From contig NZ_RQWN01000001.1 in assembly GCF_003977755.1 (NCBI RefSeq), positions 1,008,995 to 1,072,994 of the forward strand: a stretch of DNA of 64,000 nt, written 5' to 3'. The notes under the pieces were generated by a model. That model had not been told where the DNA came from. It was given only the letters and a program-made list of their open reading frames with translations, and made no database searches. Source of the stretch: Haloterrigena salifodinae. GTDB taxonomy: Archaea > Halobacteriota > Halobacteria > Halobacteriales > Natrialbaceae. Positions 31,154 through 39,149 of the stretch are shown piece by piece (positions within the stretch are counted from its first letter, which is position 1; each line of letters starts with the position of its first letter). Both the position numbers and the translations under genes were made by a program.

Positions 31154-31378
31154 ATGAGTGGACGACCGCTGGACGTCCTCGAGGCGTCGCTCGGCGAACG
31201 CGTCACGGTACGACTCAAGAGTGGCGGCGAGTACGTCGGCGATCTAGCCGGCTACGACCAGCACATGAATCTCGTGCTCGAGGACGTGACGATCCCCGAA
31301 GCCGGTGTCGACGAAGAGGCGCCGGCCGAAGACACAACGATTATACGCGGCGACAACGTCGTTTCGATCACTCCATGA
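31154..31378 (+). CDS. lsm: LSm (Sm-like) RNA-binding protein
   Basis: 74 residues with both Sm motifs: Sm1 '[29 protein letters not shown]' and Sm2 '[12 protein letters not shown]'. It forms a ring that binds U-rich RNA and small RNAs. A TATA-like TTAAGT lies about 28 bases upstream of ATG 31154. Its TGA overlaps the ATG of L37e (31375-31378), the arrangement established for archaeal lsm-rpl37e operons, including Haloferax. The loop between the Sm motifs is acidic ('[10 protein letters not shown]'). Confidence 0.95.
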
Positions 31379-31551
31379 CTGGCGCAGGAACCCCAAGCCA
31401 AGGAAAGAAGAACAAGACGACGCACACCAAATGTCGTCGCTGCGGAGAGAAGTCCTACCACACCAGAAAGAAGGAGTGCTCGTCGTGTGGCTTCGGCAAA
31501 TCCGCCAAACGCCGCGACTACGAGTGGCAGTCGAAGACCGGCGACAACTGA
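31375..31551 (+). CDS. rpl37e: 50S ribosomal protein L37e
   Basis: 58-residue zinc-binding ribosomal protein. Two CxxC pairs ([19 protein letters not shown]) make the zinc site; the N-terminus '[15 protein letters not shown]' and C-terminal '[10 protein letters not shown]' are conserved in archaeal and eukaryotic L37. It is translationally coupled to lsm by a four-base overlap. Confidence 0.97.
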
Positions 31552-32664: not shown

Positions 32665-33858
32665 ATGGAAACGACGGACGCCTTCGCCGGGCTCGAGTGC
32701 GTCGACTGCGGGATGATCCACGACGCCGAGGCGGTCTCCCACCGCTGTCCCGACTGCGACGGCTTTCTCGATCCGGTCTACGAGTACGACGCGATCGATC
32801 TCGACCGCGAGGCCCTCGCGGATCGACCGTTCGACTCGCAGTGGCGCTACGAGGAACTGCTCCCGTTCCCCCGCGAGTCGGCGGTGACGACCGACGAGGG
32901 AGCGACGCCGCTGGTCGACTGCCCCGACCTGGCCGACGAACTCGGCGTCGAACGCGTGCTGATCAAGGACGACGGCCGGAATCCGACGGGATCGACGACC
33001 GACCGTGGGGCATCGGTCGCCGCGACGGCCGCCGCCCAGCACGGGACGACCGACGTCGCGCTCGCGTCCACAGGCAACGGCGGACAGGCGGCCGCGGCCT
33101 ACGCCGGCCGGGCCGACCTCGAGTCCCACGTCTACGTGCCCTCGCGCTCGAGTTTCACGAACAAGGCGATGATCAACGTCCACGGCGGCGACATGAACGT
33201 CGTCGGCGGCCGGTTCGACGACGCCGTCGGCGCCTACGAAGAGGGGATGGGTGAACACGACGACTGGTACTCGCTGCAGCCCTTCGAGACGCCCTACCGC
33301 CACGAGGGCGCGAAGACGACCCTCTTCGAGATCGTCGAGTCCCTCGAGTGGGAGGTTCCCGACGCGATCTGTTACCCGACCGGCATCGGCGTCGGACTGG
33401 TGGGAGCGTACAAGGGAGCGACGGAGCTTCGCGAACTCGGGCTCATCGACGAGCGTCCGCCGCTGTACGCCGCCCAGGCCGCGGGCTGTGCGCCGATCGT
33501 CGACGCCCTCGAGGACGACCGCGACGATCACGAGCCGATCGACCGGCCCGACACGATCTGCGGCGAGATCGAAATCGCCGATCCGCCGGCGAGTTCGCGC
33601 GTCCTCGAGGCCGTTCGAGAGACCGACGGTGGCGCGGTCGCAACCGAGGATCGGGACATCCTCGAGTCCGGCGTCCGCGTCGCCACCCATGAGGGTCTCG
33701 AGTTGGCGCCGAGCCCGGCCGCGGCGGCGAGCGGGGCGTGGGAGCTGGCCGAGCGCGGCGAGTTCGACGGCGACGAGACGGTCGTCATCGTCAACACGAC
33801 CGCCGGTAACAAGGAAGGAGACGTGCTTCGCAGCCACCTGATGAGTCAGGGCGTCTAG
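32665..33858 (+). CDS. Threonine synthase-like protein lacking the PLP lysine
   Basis: 397 residues of the fold-type II PLP family, closest in layout to archaeal threonine synthase. An N-terminal zinc ribbon (Cys12, Cys15, Cys28, Cys31) is followed by 'GATPLVDCPDLADELGVERVLIKDDGRNPTGS', a phosphate loop 'STGNGGQAAAAYAGR' and 'CYPTGIGVGLVGAYKGATEL'. The lysine that binds PLP, normally in NPTGSFKDRG, is absent: residues 106-115 read NPTGSTTDRG, with Thr112 where Lys is expected. The nucleotides (acg acc gac at about 32992-33000) show no frameshift. So it is either a catalytically dead paralogue or one with a changed reaction. Monocistronic. Confidence 0.85.
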   Translation: METTDAFAGLECVDCGMIHDAEAVSHRCPDCDGFLDPVYEYDAIDLDREALADRPFDSQWRYEELLPFPRESAVTTDEGATPLVDCPDLADELGVERVLIKDDGRNPTGSTTDRGASVAATAAAQHGTTDVALASTGNGGQAAAAYAGRADLESHVYVPSRSSFTNKAMINVHGGDMNVVGGRFDDAVGAYEEGMGEHDDWYSLQPFETPYRHEGAKTTLFEIVESLEWEVPDAICYPTGIGVGLVGAYKGATELRELGLIDERPPLYAAQAAGCAPIVDALEDDRDDHEPIDRPDTICGEIEIADPPASSRVLEAVRETDGGAVATEDRDILESGVRVATHEGLELAPSPAAAASGAWELAERGEFDGDETVVIVNTTAGNKEGDVLRSHLMSQGV

Positions 33859-34709: not shown

Positions 34710-35546
34710 TTAGCGGTCGAGAAGCGCGCGGAGCGCGAACCGAACGTTCCCCGTCCGTTCGGTCAGCCGCCGGTAGAAGTACGATTTCCACCGGTTGCCG
34801 TACGGGACGTACTGGTAGACGGGATACTCGGCGGCGAGGTCGTTCTGGGCGTCCTCGCGGACGCCCATCAGCATCTGGATCTCGAAGTCGGTGCCGTACC
34901 GCTCGTGACAGTCGATCGCGTGCTCGATCATCGCCGGGTCGTGGCTGCCGACGGCGACGCCGCCGTCGTACCGCTCGAAGGCGTACTCGAGCAGCGACTC
35001 GTACTCCCGATCGATCTGGTCGCCGTCGCGGTAGGCGATATCGGCCGGTTCGTCGTAGGCGCCCTTGACGAACCGCACCTTCCCCGGCACGTCCGCGAGC
35101 CGTTCGACGTCCTCGCGGGTGCGCTCGAGGTTCGCCTGCACGCAGACGCCGACGCCGCCCTCGTGCTCGCGAGCGAGCTCCTCGAACGCGTCGAGGGTCG
35201 CGTCGGTCGTCGTGTGATCCTCCATGTCGATCCAAACGAAGACGTCCTCGGCGGCGGCCGCGTCGACGACGTTCGTCACGGTCTCGCGGAAGAGATCCTC
35301 ACCGAGGTCGAGTCCCAGTTGCGACGGCTTGACCGAGATGCAGGCCTGGAGGTCCGACGCGGCGATGTCCCGAGCCAGCGCGCGGTACTCGGCGGCGTCG
35401 GCCCGGACGGATTCATGGTCGTCGTAGTGCTCTCCCAGGTGGTTGACGATCCCCGCGATATCGCGCTCGTTGAGGCGTCGGACGTGCTCGAGGGCCGTTG
35501 CCGGGGACTCCCCGGCGACGAAGCGGTTCGCGATCGGCGGGAGCAT
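34710..35546 (-). CDS. Proline dehydrogenase
   Basis: 278-residue FAD-dependent beta/alpha barrel, the short stand-alone form. Motifs: 'CISVKPSQLGLDLG', 'WIDMEDHTTTDATLDAF', 'VCVQANLERTREDVERL', 'VRFVKGAYDEP', 'AVGSHDPAMI', 'FEIQMLMGVREDAQ' and the C-terminal 'YVPYGNRWKSYFYRRLTER', whose arginines hold the proline carboxylate. It oxidises proline to pyrroline-5-carboxylate. It lies at the beginning of a block of amino-acid degradation genes. The partner P5C dehydrogenase is not in the window. Confidence 0.93.
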   Translation of the reverse strand: MLPPIANRFVAGESPATALEHVRRLNERDIAGIVNHLGEHYDDHESVRADAAEYRALARDIAASDLQACISVKPSQLGLDLGEDLFRETVTNVVDAAAAEDVFVWIDMEDHTTTDATLDAFEELAREHEGGVGVCVQANLERTREDVERLADVPGKVRFVKGAYDEPADIAYRDGDQIDREYESLLEYAFERYDGGVAVGSHDPAMIEHAIDCHERYGTDFEIQMLMGVREDAQNDLAAEYPVYQYVPYGNRWKSYFYRRLTERTGNVRFALRALLDR

Positions 35547-35801
35547 GGTCGTCCGTTCGACGGCCGTCCCTAAGGGAGTTTGTCCGGTTCGCAGCGTGAG
35601 ACGTTCCGTCCCGTCGATCCCGCCGACCGGCGGACCTCCCTACCGACGTCGAGCGTTCGGAATCGAACGCGCAGTTCGGCGGAAATGCCCGACGGATTGG
35701 CTGTCGATCTACTCTCTCCTACTGGGGCTACCCCACCGCGACCCGTCGCAGTGCGTCTACGATATTCGACACCCACACATGCAGCAACGGGTTTCGAAGC
35801 C

Positions 35802-35862
35802 GTATCCATACCCAATATCTGTATATGTCCTATATGGATACTGTGGACAAGTTATTTATAAT
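35802..35862 (+). promoter_or_regulatory. Promoter with upstream 9+9 dyad for the first class III aminotransferase
   Basis: A perfect inverted repeat, GTATCCATA (35802-35810) and TATGGATAC (35833-35841), separated by 22 AT-rich bases, lies directly upstream of a TTTATAAT box (35855-35862). The ATG at 35883 is about 25 bases after the box, so the message is probably leaderless. The dyad is placed where an activator or regulator would bind. Confidence 0.6.
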
Positions 35863-35882
35863 CGTTTCACCTGTGCCTACGT

Positions 35883-37265
35883 ATGACGCGCGGACCGCCG
35901 ATCGACGAACTCCACTCCGATGACGCACCGAACGTCGACTCCGTCCCGGGACCGAACACCCGAGAACTGCTCGAGAAGCAGCGCGAGATCGACAGCAGCG
36001 CGGTCGCGTACCCCAACGACATCCCGATCGCCTTCGAGGAGGGGAAGGGAGCGACGGTCCGCGACGCCGACGGCAACATCTACATCGACCTCTTCGCGGG
36101 CATCGGCGTCCTGAACGTCGGGCACGCGAACCCGTACGTGCTCGAGGCTGTTCACGAGCAGGCCGACAAGTTCGTCCACACGGTCGATTTCCCGACGGAG
36201 GCCCGCCTCGAGTTGATCGAGAAGTTAGACGAGATCGCCCCGGACGGCCTGCAGGGTGACCAGAAGGTGGTCTTCGGCGGGCCGACCGGCAGCGACGCCA
36301 TCGAGGCCTCGATCAAACTCTCCAAGTACAACACCGGCGGCGACGGCCTCATCGCGTTCCGTGGCGCCTACCACGGCGCGACGACGGGTGCGATGAGCGT
36401 CACGTCGAACAAGAAGTTCAAGGGTCACTACACGCCCCTGCTCTCGGACGTCGTCCACGCGCCCTATCCCCACCCGTTCCGGCAGGGCAAGACGCCCGAG
36501 GAAGCGGTCGATCACGCCCTCGAGGAGGTCCAGGCGATCGTCGAGGACCCCTACGGCGGCCTGGCCAATCCGGCCGGCATGATCGTCGAACCGATCCAGG
36601 GCGAGGGCGGCATCGTCACGCCGCCGGAGGGCTTCCTCCAGGGGCTGCGAGACATCGCCGACGACAACGACGTCACGCTCGTCTTCGACGAGATCCAGAG
36701 CGGGCTGGGCCGCACCGGCGAGTGGTGGGCCAGCGACTGGGAGGGCGTCACCCCCGACGTGATGACCTCCGCGAAGGCGCTGGGCGGCGTCGGTTTCCCC
36801 CTCTCGGCGACGATGTACAAGGAGGAACTGGACACGTGGGGGCCGGGCGACCACGCCGGCACCTACCGCGGCCATGTCGTCGGGATGCGCGCCGGCACCC
36901 GCGCCATCGAGTACATCCAGGACCACGATCTGCTCGCCCACGCCCGTGACCTCGGCGAGTACATCCAGGGCCGACTACAGGAGGCCGCCGACGGAACCGA
37001 ACGGCTCGCCGACGTCCGCGGCAGGGGCCTGTTCATCGGCGCCGAGTTCGTCGATGCGGACGGGACGCCCGACGGCGACCTCGTCGACGCGATTCAGCAG
37101 TACTGCTTCGAGCACGGCGTCCTCGTCTGGACGGCCGGCCGAGAGGGCAACGTCCTGCGGTTCCTCCCGCCGCTCGTGCTCACCCGCGACCTCGCGGAGA
37201 CCGCGCTGGACGTCGTCGTCGAGGCGATCGAGCACGCGACCGCGGAAGCGAAGCAGACCGCCTGA
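35883..37265 (+). CDS. Class III (omega) aminotransferase, GABA/ornithine/diaminobutyrate type
   Basis: 460 residues of PLP fold type I, class III. '[24 protein letters not shown]', '[17 protein letters not shown]', '[17 protein letters not shown]', '[24 protein letters not shown]', '[18 protein letters not shown]' and the PLP lysine Lys298 in 'TSAKALGG' are all present. The closest general groups transfer the distal amino group of 4-aminobutyrate, ornithine, lysine or 2,4-diaminobutyrate to 2-oxoglutarate. The substrate is not determined. Followed after 33 bases by ridA on the same strand, which suits an enzyme that produces reactive imines. Confidence 0.9.
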
Positions 37266-37298
37266 AGCCGAATTCGATCCACCCCTACTCGAGATACC

Positions 37299-37688
37299 AT
37301 GGCAGACACCGACCCCATCGAGACCGACGGCGCACCGAGCAACGATAACCCCTACTCGCAGGGCGTGGTGGCCGGCGATACGTGCTACGTCTCCGGCTAC
37401 GGCCCGGTCGATCCAGAGACGGGCGAGACCGTCGACGGCGATATCGAGGTCCAGACCGAGCGCGTCCTGGCGAACATCGAGAGCGTGGTCGACGAGGCCG
37501 GCGGAAACGGCCTCGAGGACGTCGTCAAGGTGACCGTTTACCTGACCGACCTCGAGGACTACGAGCGGGTCAACGAGGCCTACGGCGCGCAGTTCGGCGA
37601 CAAACCGCCGGCCCGCGTCTGCGTGGAGGTCTCGCGGCTCCCCGAGGACGTCCGCGTCGAGATGGATGCGACGGCGTACGTCGGCTGA
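37299..37688 (+). CDS. RidA-family enamine/imine deaminase
   Basis: 129 residues, normal family length. The signature is 'PYSQGVVAGDTCYVSGYGPVDPETGE', then 'QTERVLANIESVVDEAG', 'VVKVTVYLTDLEDYERVNEAYGAQFG' and 'PPARVCVEVSRLP', with the substrate-binding arginine. It hydrolyses enamine/imine by-products of PLP enzymes. It forms an operon with the aminotransferase upstream. Confidence 0.93.
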   Translation: MADTDPIETDGAPSNDNPYSQGVVAGDTCYVSGYGPVDPETGETVDGDIEVQTERVLANIESVVDEAGGNGLEDVVKVTVYLTDLEDYERVNEAYGAQFGDKPPARVCVEVSRLPEDVRVEMDATAYVG

Positions 37689-37868
37689 GGCGGTCGCGTC
37701 CGTCGCTCGTCGCTGCCGGCAGCGGTCGGGCTCGAGACCGCTCGCGGAGAGAACTGCCGAGACGATCCGTCGAACCCGGTTTGTTTCGCTATCGTACACC
37801 GTCTGCGAGTGGCATATATACGATTATTGATTACGATTAAGTAGTTCGGCCGTCTAGATGCGGCAATA

Positions 37869-39149
37869 ATGGCCTACGACGTGCGAACCAGACTGCGCGA
37901 TCTCCGCCGGGACTTTCACCGCCACCCCGAACCGGGGTGGCGCGAGTTCAAGACGACTGCCCGCGTCGTCTCCGAACTCGAGCGACTCGGCGTCGACGAA
38001 ATCGCCGTCGGGCGGGAGGCGCTGGCGACCGACGACCGCATGGCCGTCCCCGACGACGACGAACTCGAGCCCTGGCTCGAGCGGGCTCGCGAGGCGGGCG
38101 TTCGCGAGGACGTCCTCGAGCGAACCGCGGGGGGCCACACCGGCGTCGTCGCGGTCGTTGACCGCGGCGAGGGGCCGACCGTGGGGTTGCGAGTCGATCT
38201 CGACGCGATCTCGATGGCAGAGTCGTCGGCCGACGACCACCGACCGGTCGCGGAGGGCTTCCGCTCGGAGCACGACGGCTACATGCACGCCTGTGGCCAC
38301 GACGCCCACATCGCGATGGCTCTCGGGACGATCGAAGCCGTCCAGGACAGCGGCTTTGCGGGGACGCTGAAGGTCTTCTTCCAGCCCGCCGAGGAGATCT
38401 CCGGCGGCGGGAAGGCGATGGCCGAGGGCGGCTACGTCGACGACGTCGACTACCTGCTGGCGGTCCACGTCGGCCTCGACCACCCGACCGGCGAGATCGT
38501 CGCTGGCGTCGAGAAGCCGCTGGCGATGGCCCACCTGACGGCGACCTTCGAGGGCGCGAGCGCCCACGCGGGGAGGGCGCCCAACGAGGGCGGCAACGCG
38601 ATGCAGGCGGCCGCGACCGCCATCCAGAACGCGTACGGCATCCCTCGGCACAGCGACGGCATGACTCGCGTGAACGTCGGCCACATCGAAGGCGGCACCG
38701 CGAGCAACGTCATCGCCGAGGAGGTCACCATCGAGGCGGAGGTCCGCGGCGAGACGACCGGCCTCATGGAATACATGCGGACGGAACTCGAGCGGGTCTG
38801 CTACGCGGCGGCGGAGATGCACGACTGTGACGTGACGCCGCGGGTCATCAGCGAGTCACCGCGGGCGGACAGCCACCCTGCGCTGCGGGACCTCGTCGGC
38901 AGCGTCGCCCGCGAGGTCGACGGCGTCGAGCGCATCGTGCCGACGGAGGAGTTCGGTGTCAGCGAGGACGTCACCTACCTCATGGACCGCGTCCAGGACG
39001 GCGGCGGCCTCGCGTCGTACGTGCTCGTCGGCACCGACCACCCGACGAACCACCACACGCCGACGTTCGACATCGACGAGGCGAGCCTCGAGATCGGCGT
39101 CTCGGTGCTGGCCGACACCGCCATCGAACTCTCGAAGCGACCGGTCTGA
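37869..39149 (+). CDS. AbgA-like M20 amidohydrolase, copy 1
   Basis: 426-residue zinc-dependent M20D hydrolase. 'RRDFHRHPEPGWREFKT', the AbgA-type insertion with 'DRMAVPDDDELEPWLERA', 'GLRVDLDAI', metal ligands in 'MHACGHDAHIAMALGT' and 'FFQPAEEISGGG', 'HVGLDHPTGE', the dimerisation domain 'GASAHAGRAPNEGGNA', and the last histidine in 'DHPTNHHTPTF'. It removes an acyl or aminoacyl group from an N-acyl amino acid; AbgA itself splits p-aminobenzoyl-glutamate. A TTAAGT promoter element lies about 30 bases before the ATG. A paralogue is at 47098-48432. Confidence 0.9.
   Translation: MAYDVRTRLRDLRRDFHRHPEPGWREFKTTARVVSELERLGVDEIAVGREALATDDRMAVPDDDELEPWLERAREAGVREDVLERTAGGHTGVVAVVDRGEGPTVGLRVDLDAISMAESSADDHRPVAEGFRSEHDGYMHACGHDAHIAMALGTIEAVQDSGFAGTLKVFFQPAEEISGGGKAMAEGGYVDDVDYLLAVHVGLDHPTGEIVAGVEKPLAMAHLTATFEGASAHAGRAPNEGGNAMQAAATAIQNAYGIPRHSDGMTRVNVGHIEGGTASNVIAEEVTIEAEVRGETTGLMEYMRTELERVCYAAAEMHDCDVTPRVISESPRADSHPALRDLVGSVAREVDGVERIVPTEEFGVSEDVTYLMDRVQDGGGLASYVLVGTDHPTNHHTPTFDIDEASLEIGVSVLADTAIELSKRPV

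Follow-up and report, generated by a model that had tools for sequence, protein, structure and literature searches.

Pseudoenzymes have been studied mostly in eukaryotes, where they occur as duplicates beside an active paralogue. Among relatives of PLP enzymes, SPTLC1, AZIN1 and ADC belong to other PLP folds than the one considered here. For haloarchaeal threonine synthases without the Schiff-base lysine (hereafter Lys-less), our search of the open literature found nothing, and it returned no paper on a nematode CBS module without the lysine. SPTLC1, AZIN1 and ADC have lost enzyme function and acquired a non-enzymic one (PMC2748086). In trypanosomatids, the live deoxyhypusine synthase is activated by its dead paralogue, with which it forms a heterotetramer (PMC3663545). 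In Haloferax volcanii, only thrC3 (HVO_2969) is known to be required when the medium contains no added amino acids (PMC4300041), whichever of the paralogues discussed below it corresponds to.

Here we describe a threonine-synthase-like protein of Haloterrigena salifodinae that, with a probability of roughly 0.7, is a conserved pseudoenzyme that works without PLP, descends from a fold-type II enzyme resembling threonine synthase and has retained a non-catalytic function. Like SPTLC1, AZIN1 and ADC, it would be a PLP-enzyme homologue with a non-enzymic function, but those are paralogues that eukaryotes have alongside an active partner, whereas here a single archaeal locus is occupied by one form or the other. 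With the trypanosomatid protein it would share the state of a catalytically dead homologue under selection; live and dead proteins are coupled there (PMC3663545), whereas we saw no sign of such coupling here. The gene lies in the window, the 64,000-nucleotide stretch of DNA that was analysed, and has the following features.

32665..33858, + strand: coding sequence of the threonine-synthase-like protein without the Schiff-base lysine, 397 aa (translation, NF006050, Pfam PALP, fold match to 2c2b)
32698..32757, + strand: zinc-ribbon cysteines C12, C15, C28 and C31 (invariant in 103/103 family orthologues; kept in 85-89 of 96 sequences of the Lys-less class)
32980..33009, + strand: NPTGSTTDRG, residues 106-115, canonical NPTGTFKDRG (translation, codon reading, orthologue alignment)
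32998..33000, + strand: codon 112, ACC for Thr in place of the Schiff-base lysine (codons in relatives, alignments to solved threonine synthases)
33382..33390, + strand: degenerate PLP-phosphate loop, residues 240-242, G-I-G, canonical G-G-G (comparison at Gly241)

The frame reads through 397 codons to its stop with no internal stops, and the protein scores 314.3 bits against the NF006050 profile (PRK08197, 'threonine synthase'; above the curated cut-off of 303) and matches Pfam PALP with E=3.7e-62. Residues 106-115 are encoded by aat ccg acg gga tcg acg acc gac cgt ggg, and phmmer alignments with solved threonine synthases place Thr112 opposite the K of SFKDRG, so the protein lacks the lysine that PRK08197 / NF006050 members carry in SFKDRG or TFKDRG. 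It also lacks their glycine-rich PLP-phosphate loop, reading GIGVG against GGGVG in orthologues with the lysine (hereafter Lys+). STTDRG recurs in the 4 other Lys-less genomes of the genus, which makes a sequencing error unlikely; as other genera share the lysine loss too, both an error and a private mutation were ruled out. An earlier note on this DNA had described a clean nucleotide sequence, Thr112 in place of the PLP lysine, and a zinc ribbon and phosphate loop that were kept; the first three hold, the ribbon with all four cysteines, and the last is wrong.

An AlphaFold2 model of the window protein (pLDDT 97) predicts that the threonine-synthase fold is retained, as the earlier note had also proposed. 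Its best matches among solved structures are threonine synthases, with Z 50, rmsd 2.1 and 390 aligned residues for plant 2c2b, Z 48 for 6nmx, and Z 44-50 over the solved ThrC relatives 2d1f, 6nmx, 1v7c and 2c2b; the model of a Lys+ orthologue gave identical top matches. TrpB K87T is among the structures in the match list, and PLP binding without the lysine is possible in some lysine mutants of fold-type II enzymes, so the Lys-less protein would probably, but not necessarily, be free of PLP.

The gene was found in 124/125 genomes of the window's family, Natrialbaceae (E<=1e-80), and a scan of named genomes likewise returned orthologues across the family, part of them Lys+ and part Lys-less. Of 103 family orthologues read, 45 have the canonical FK (TFKDRG), 53 are without lysine and 5 have SK (TSKDRG) in a Lys-less background. 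Lys-less forms occur in 13 genera of the family and in several other haloarchaeal families. A predominance of lysine among orthologues, according to the earlier note, would have pointed to a private mutation: about half of the family orthologues do have it, and the spread of the Lys-less form speaks against a private change. In a sample of the order, 137/146 genomes have a relative at E<=1e-60, a few of these matches being canonical ThrC. Two nearly complete haloarchaeal genomes, G127 (f4) and G177 (f17; family and genus codes such as f1 and g1 are internal labels of the analysis), have no relative at that threshold. A few genomes carry a second, separate Lys+ paralogue with NPTNTFKDRG, about 40-47% identical to the window protein (L128-L133, L180, L188).

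Within the family, the Lys+ orthologues, which fall under PRK08197 / NF006050, share with the Lys-less form the locus, fold, zinc ribbon and length, and are about 65-78% identical to the window protein; their own activity is putative. They differ in keeping TFKDRG, GGGVG, A136, K216 and G308, each lost by nearly all of the Lys-less class. This class comprises 96 sequences pooled over haloarchaeal families, the 5 TSKDRG sequences included, and was compared with 70 Lys+ orthologues, in which 117 columns are invariant or nearly so. The three most degenerate of these columns in the Lys-less class are Gly241, Lys112 and Phe111: the glycine, present in 70/70 Lys+ orthologues, remains in 1% of the class and is replaced by 12 residue types; lysine is absent at 112 in 91/96; and positions 111-112 show 31 different residue pairs. 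A136, K216, M219, G301 and G308 are mostly or wholly replaced. A catalytic residue of active enzymes has thus been lost across orthologues and not in one genome only. The 5 TSKDRG proteins, with the lysine and without the phosphate-loop glycine, are nested inside the Lys-less group, as would be expected if residue 112 no longer mattered there. A motif that only the Lys-less class has acquired and that would hint at a ligand did not emerge from the comparison (96 versus 70 sequences). An otherwise Lys+ sequence of family f7 (L162, genome G202) has TCNDRG and GGGGG (V243 to Gly), and is either the beginning of a lysine loss or an assembly error. In family f5, Lys-less proteins of genus g33 (L175-L179, L183, L218) have lost the zinc-ribbon cysteines too (LESRASG or LKSRASG), so a shared role need not be identical everywhere.

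Outside the active site the protein is constrained. No orthologue read contains a stop codon, the frames are full length throughout the 96 Lys-less-class sequences, and median pairwise dN/dS (NG86) is 0.06-0.23 in Lys-less groups and 0.08-0.17 in Lys+ groups, as for a pseudoenzyme under purifying selection. These values, together with near-universal retention in the family, rule out a pseudogene.

Two genes upstream, named by eye from sequence like the other neighbours unless stated, define the locus.

31154..31378, + strand: LSM (Sm-like) gene, conserved neighbour upstream of both the Lys+ and the Lys-less form (tblastn synteny)
31375..31551, + strand: ribosomal protein L37e gene, conserved upstream neighbour (tblastn synteny)

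In most genomes of the family, tblastn synteny places both forms behind LSM and L37e, with a further match between the forms in the downstream genes of genera g1 and g23. No genome of the family has both a Lys+ and a Lys-less orthologue (0/103), which rules out for this family that the Lys-less form is an extra paralogue beside a Lys+ orthologue; some f5 genomes do have both, at different loci. Neighbourhoods common to Lys+ and Lys-less genes are seen in some cases beyond the family as well; interchangeability is shown for the window's own family only. No neighbour gene, as read by eye, points to a pathway, these being LSM and L37e in the family and unrelated genes elsewhere. Next to the gene, at 34710-39149, the window encodes what were read by eye as a proline dehydrogenase, a class-III aminotransferase, RidA and an M20-type peptidase; together they resemble a cluster for amino-acid catabolism, which is found downstream in some genera only.

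The evidence points to exchange of the two forms between genera. G023, of the window's own genus, carries a Lys+ protein 76% identical to the window protein and 90% identical to a Lys+ protein from a different genus; for its ThrC the two figures run the other way (96% versus 92%). Within g1, dS at the gene is 0.63, higher than the 0.41-0.43 that separates Lys+ genes from different genera; at a flanking gene the order is reversed (0.32 versus 0.40-0.44). After removal of 34 site columns, monophyly was rejected for g1 (p=0.0005) and g23 (p=0.028) and not for g15 (p=0.124). The simplest account is that old Lys+ and Lys-less forms have been exchanged at one locus through homologous recombination. 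In the first protein tree (LG+G4, with long branches in the order-level set, where some lineages evolve fast) the Lys-less class sits on one branch with SH-aLRT 99, the private exception L162 apart. With 38 active-site columns removed, neither one Lys-less clade (p=0.32) nor monophyly of families (p=0.54) was rejected; as the clade in the first tree leans on site columns, we do not claim a single origin, and the trees would allow one to about five lysine losses.

The canonical enzyme is encoded elsewhere. ThrC (in the window's genome L002, with NPTGSFKDRG and a PVGNAGN loop) resembles the window protein in fold, archaeal zinc ribbon and NPTG..DRG context, and differs in that it is 37% identical, has the lysine and phosphate loop intact and is a separate gene; besides the gene itself, the threonine-synthase relatives closest to it in the window's genome reach 37% and 36% identity, both with the lysine. 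The earlier note had suggested looking for a coexisting canonical SFKDRG paralogue, and ThrC is indeed present in 111/111 good-quality genomes of the family, with relatives of it in 169/170 genomes of f5. Because canonical ThrC coexists, neither form is, on this evidence, needed for threonine. The same coexistence, and the threonine-synthase fold of both proteins, would suit a regulatory subunit acting in heteromers with ThrC, as SPTLC1 does with SPTLC2, a role of the kind the earlier note had put forward. We consider such a subunit improbable, since across 21 genomes (a weak test) no ThrC column distinguishes Lys+ genomes from Lys-less ones, ThrC follows genus and not Lys state in the pairs compared, and the two genes are not linked. 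Coadaptation with ThrC left no signal in these 21 genomes. Of the earlier reading, the pseudoenzyme is supported by lysine loss in many genera and families, loop degeneration, purifying selection on an intact gene and a coexisting ThrC; the regulator or partner of ThrC finds no support.

It is likewise unlikely, if marginally less so, that the protein is a new PLP-independent enzyme whose cleft has been turned to a different chemistry, or to a phosphorylated substrate, through conserved residues such as R161, K167, H173, R183 and R212. In the Lys-less class these residues reach conservation of 95% or more across families, and some new residues recur at fixed places (Glu301 together with Arg312 in 40/96), but the five are equally conserved in the Lys+ class and may be purely structural; the 96 sequences, set against 70 Lys+ ones, showed no catalytic constellation that is theirs alone, and positions 111, 112 and 241 are free to vary, as those of an active site would not be. 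That the protein still uses PLP through another lysine is very improbable: K101, K167 and K217 are present in 93-99% of the Lys-less class, but the Lys+ proteins, in which K112 fills this role, have them just as invariantly, and, being kept in both classes, are probably structural, while Gly241 of the phosphate loop and also K216 are lost. Equally remote is a gene in decay and heading for loss. Relaxed active-site residues and the fast-evolving lineages would fit it, but it is already contradicted by the full-length frames, the low dN/dS, the retention across the family and the confidently predicted fold.

We therefore return to a pseudoenzyme with a retained function. The phosphate-loop glycine has been lost together with the Schiff-base lysine and the Phe before it, and all three positions vary freely, while the rest of the protein, most zinc-ribbon cysteines included, is under purifying selection; one form or the other is kept at the one locus in nearly every genome of the family. 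Because either form satisfies the locus, the selected function probably needs no PLP chemistry and is probably carried out by both forms, the Lys+ form performing it besides whatever catalysis it has. The Lys-less protein thus probably has a non-catalytic, so far undescribed job, which it probably has in common with the Lys+ version; most likely the protein binds either a small molecule, in its remodelled active-site cleft, or a partner protein, in a regulatory or structural role. More tentatively, at somewhat under even odds, this non-catalytic function is the core one, and the catalytic and dead versions are interchangeable, allele-like forms of a single haloarchaeal gene swapped between genera by recombination, the lysine perhaps having been lost more than once.

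A single-copy pseudoenzyme spread through an archaeal order is unusual. As the protein passes the NCBI cut-off, automatic annotation calls it threonine synthase, and metabolic models then count an enzyme that is unable to use the usual PLP chemistry. If the two forms are allele-like and interchangeable, what is selected for here would not be the enzyme activity; pairs of close relatives that differ in Lys state exist, and the locus would amount to a natural separation-of-function experiment in which the shared activity is independent of catalysis.
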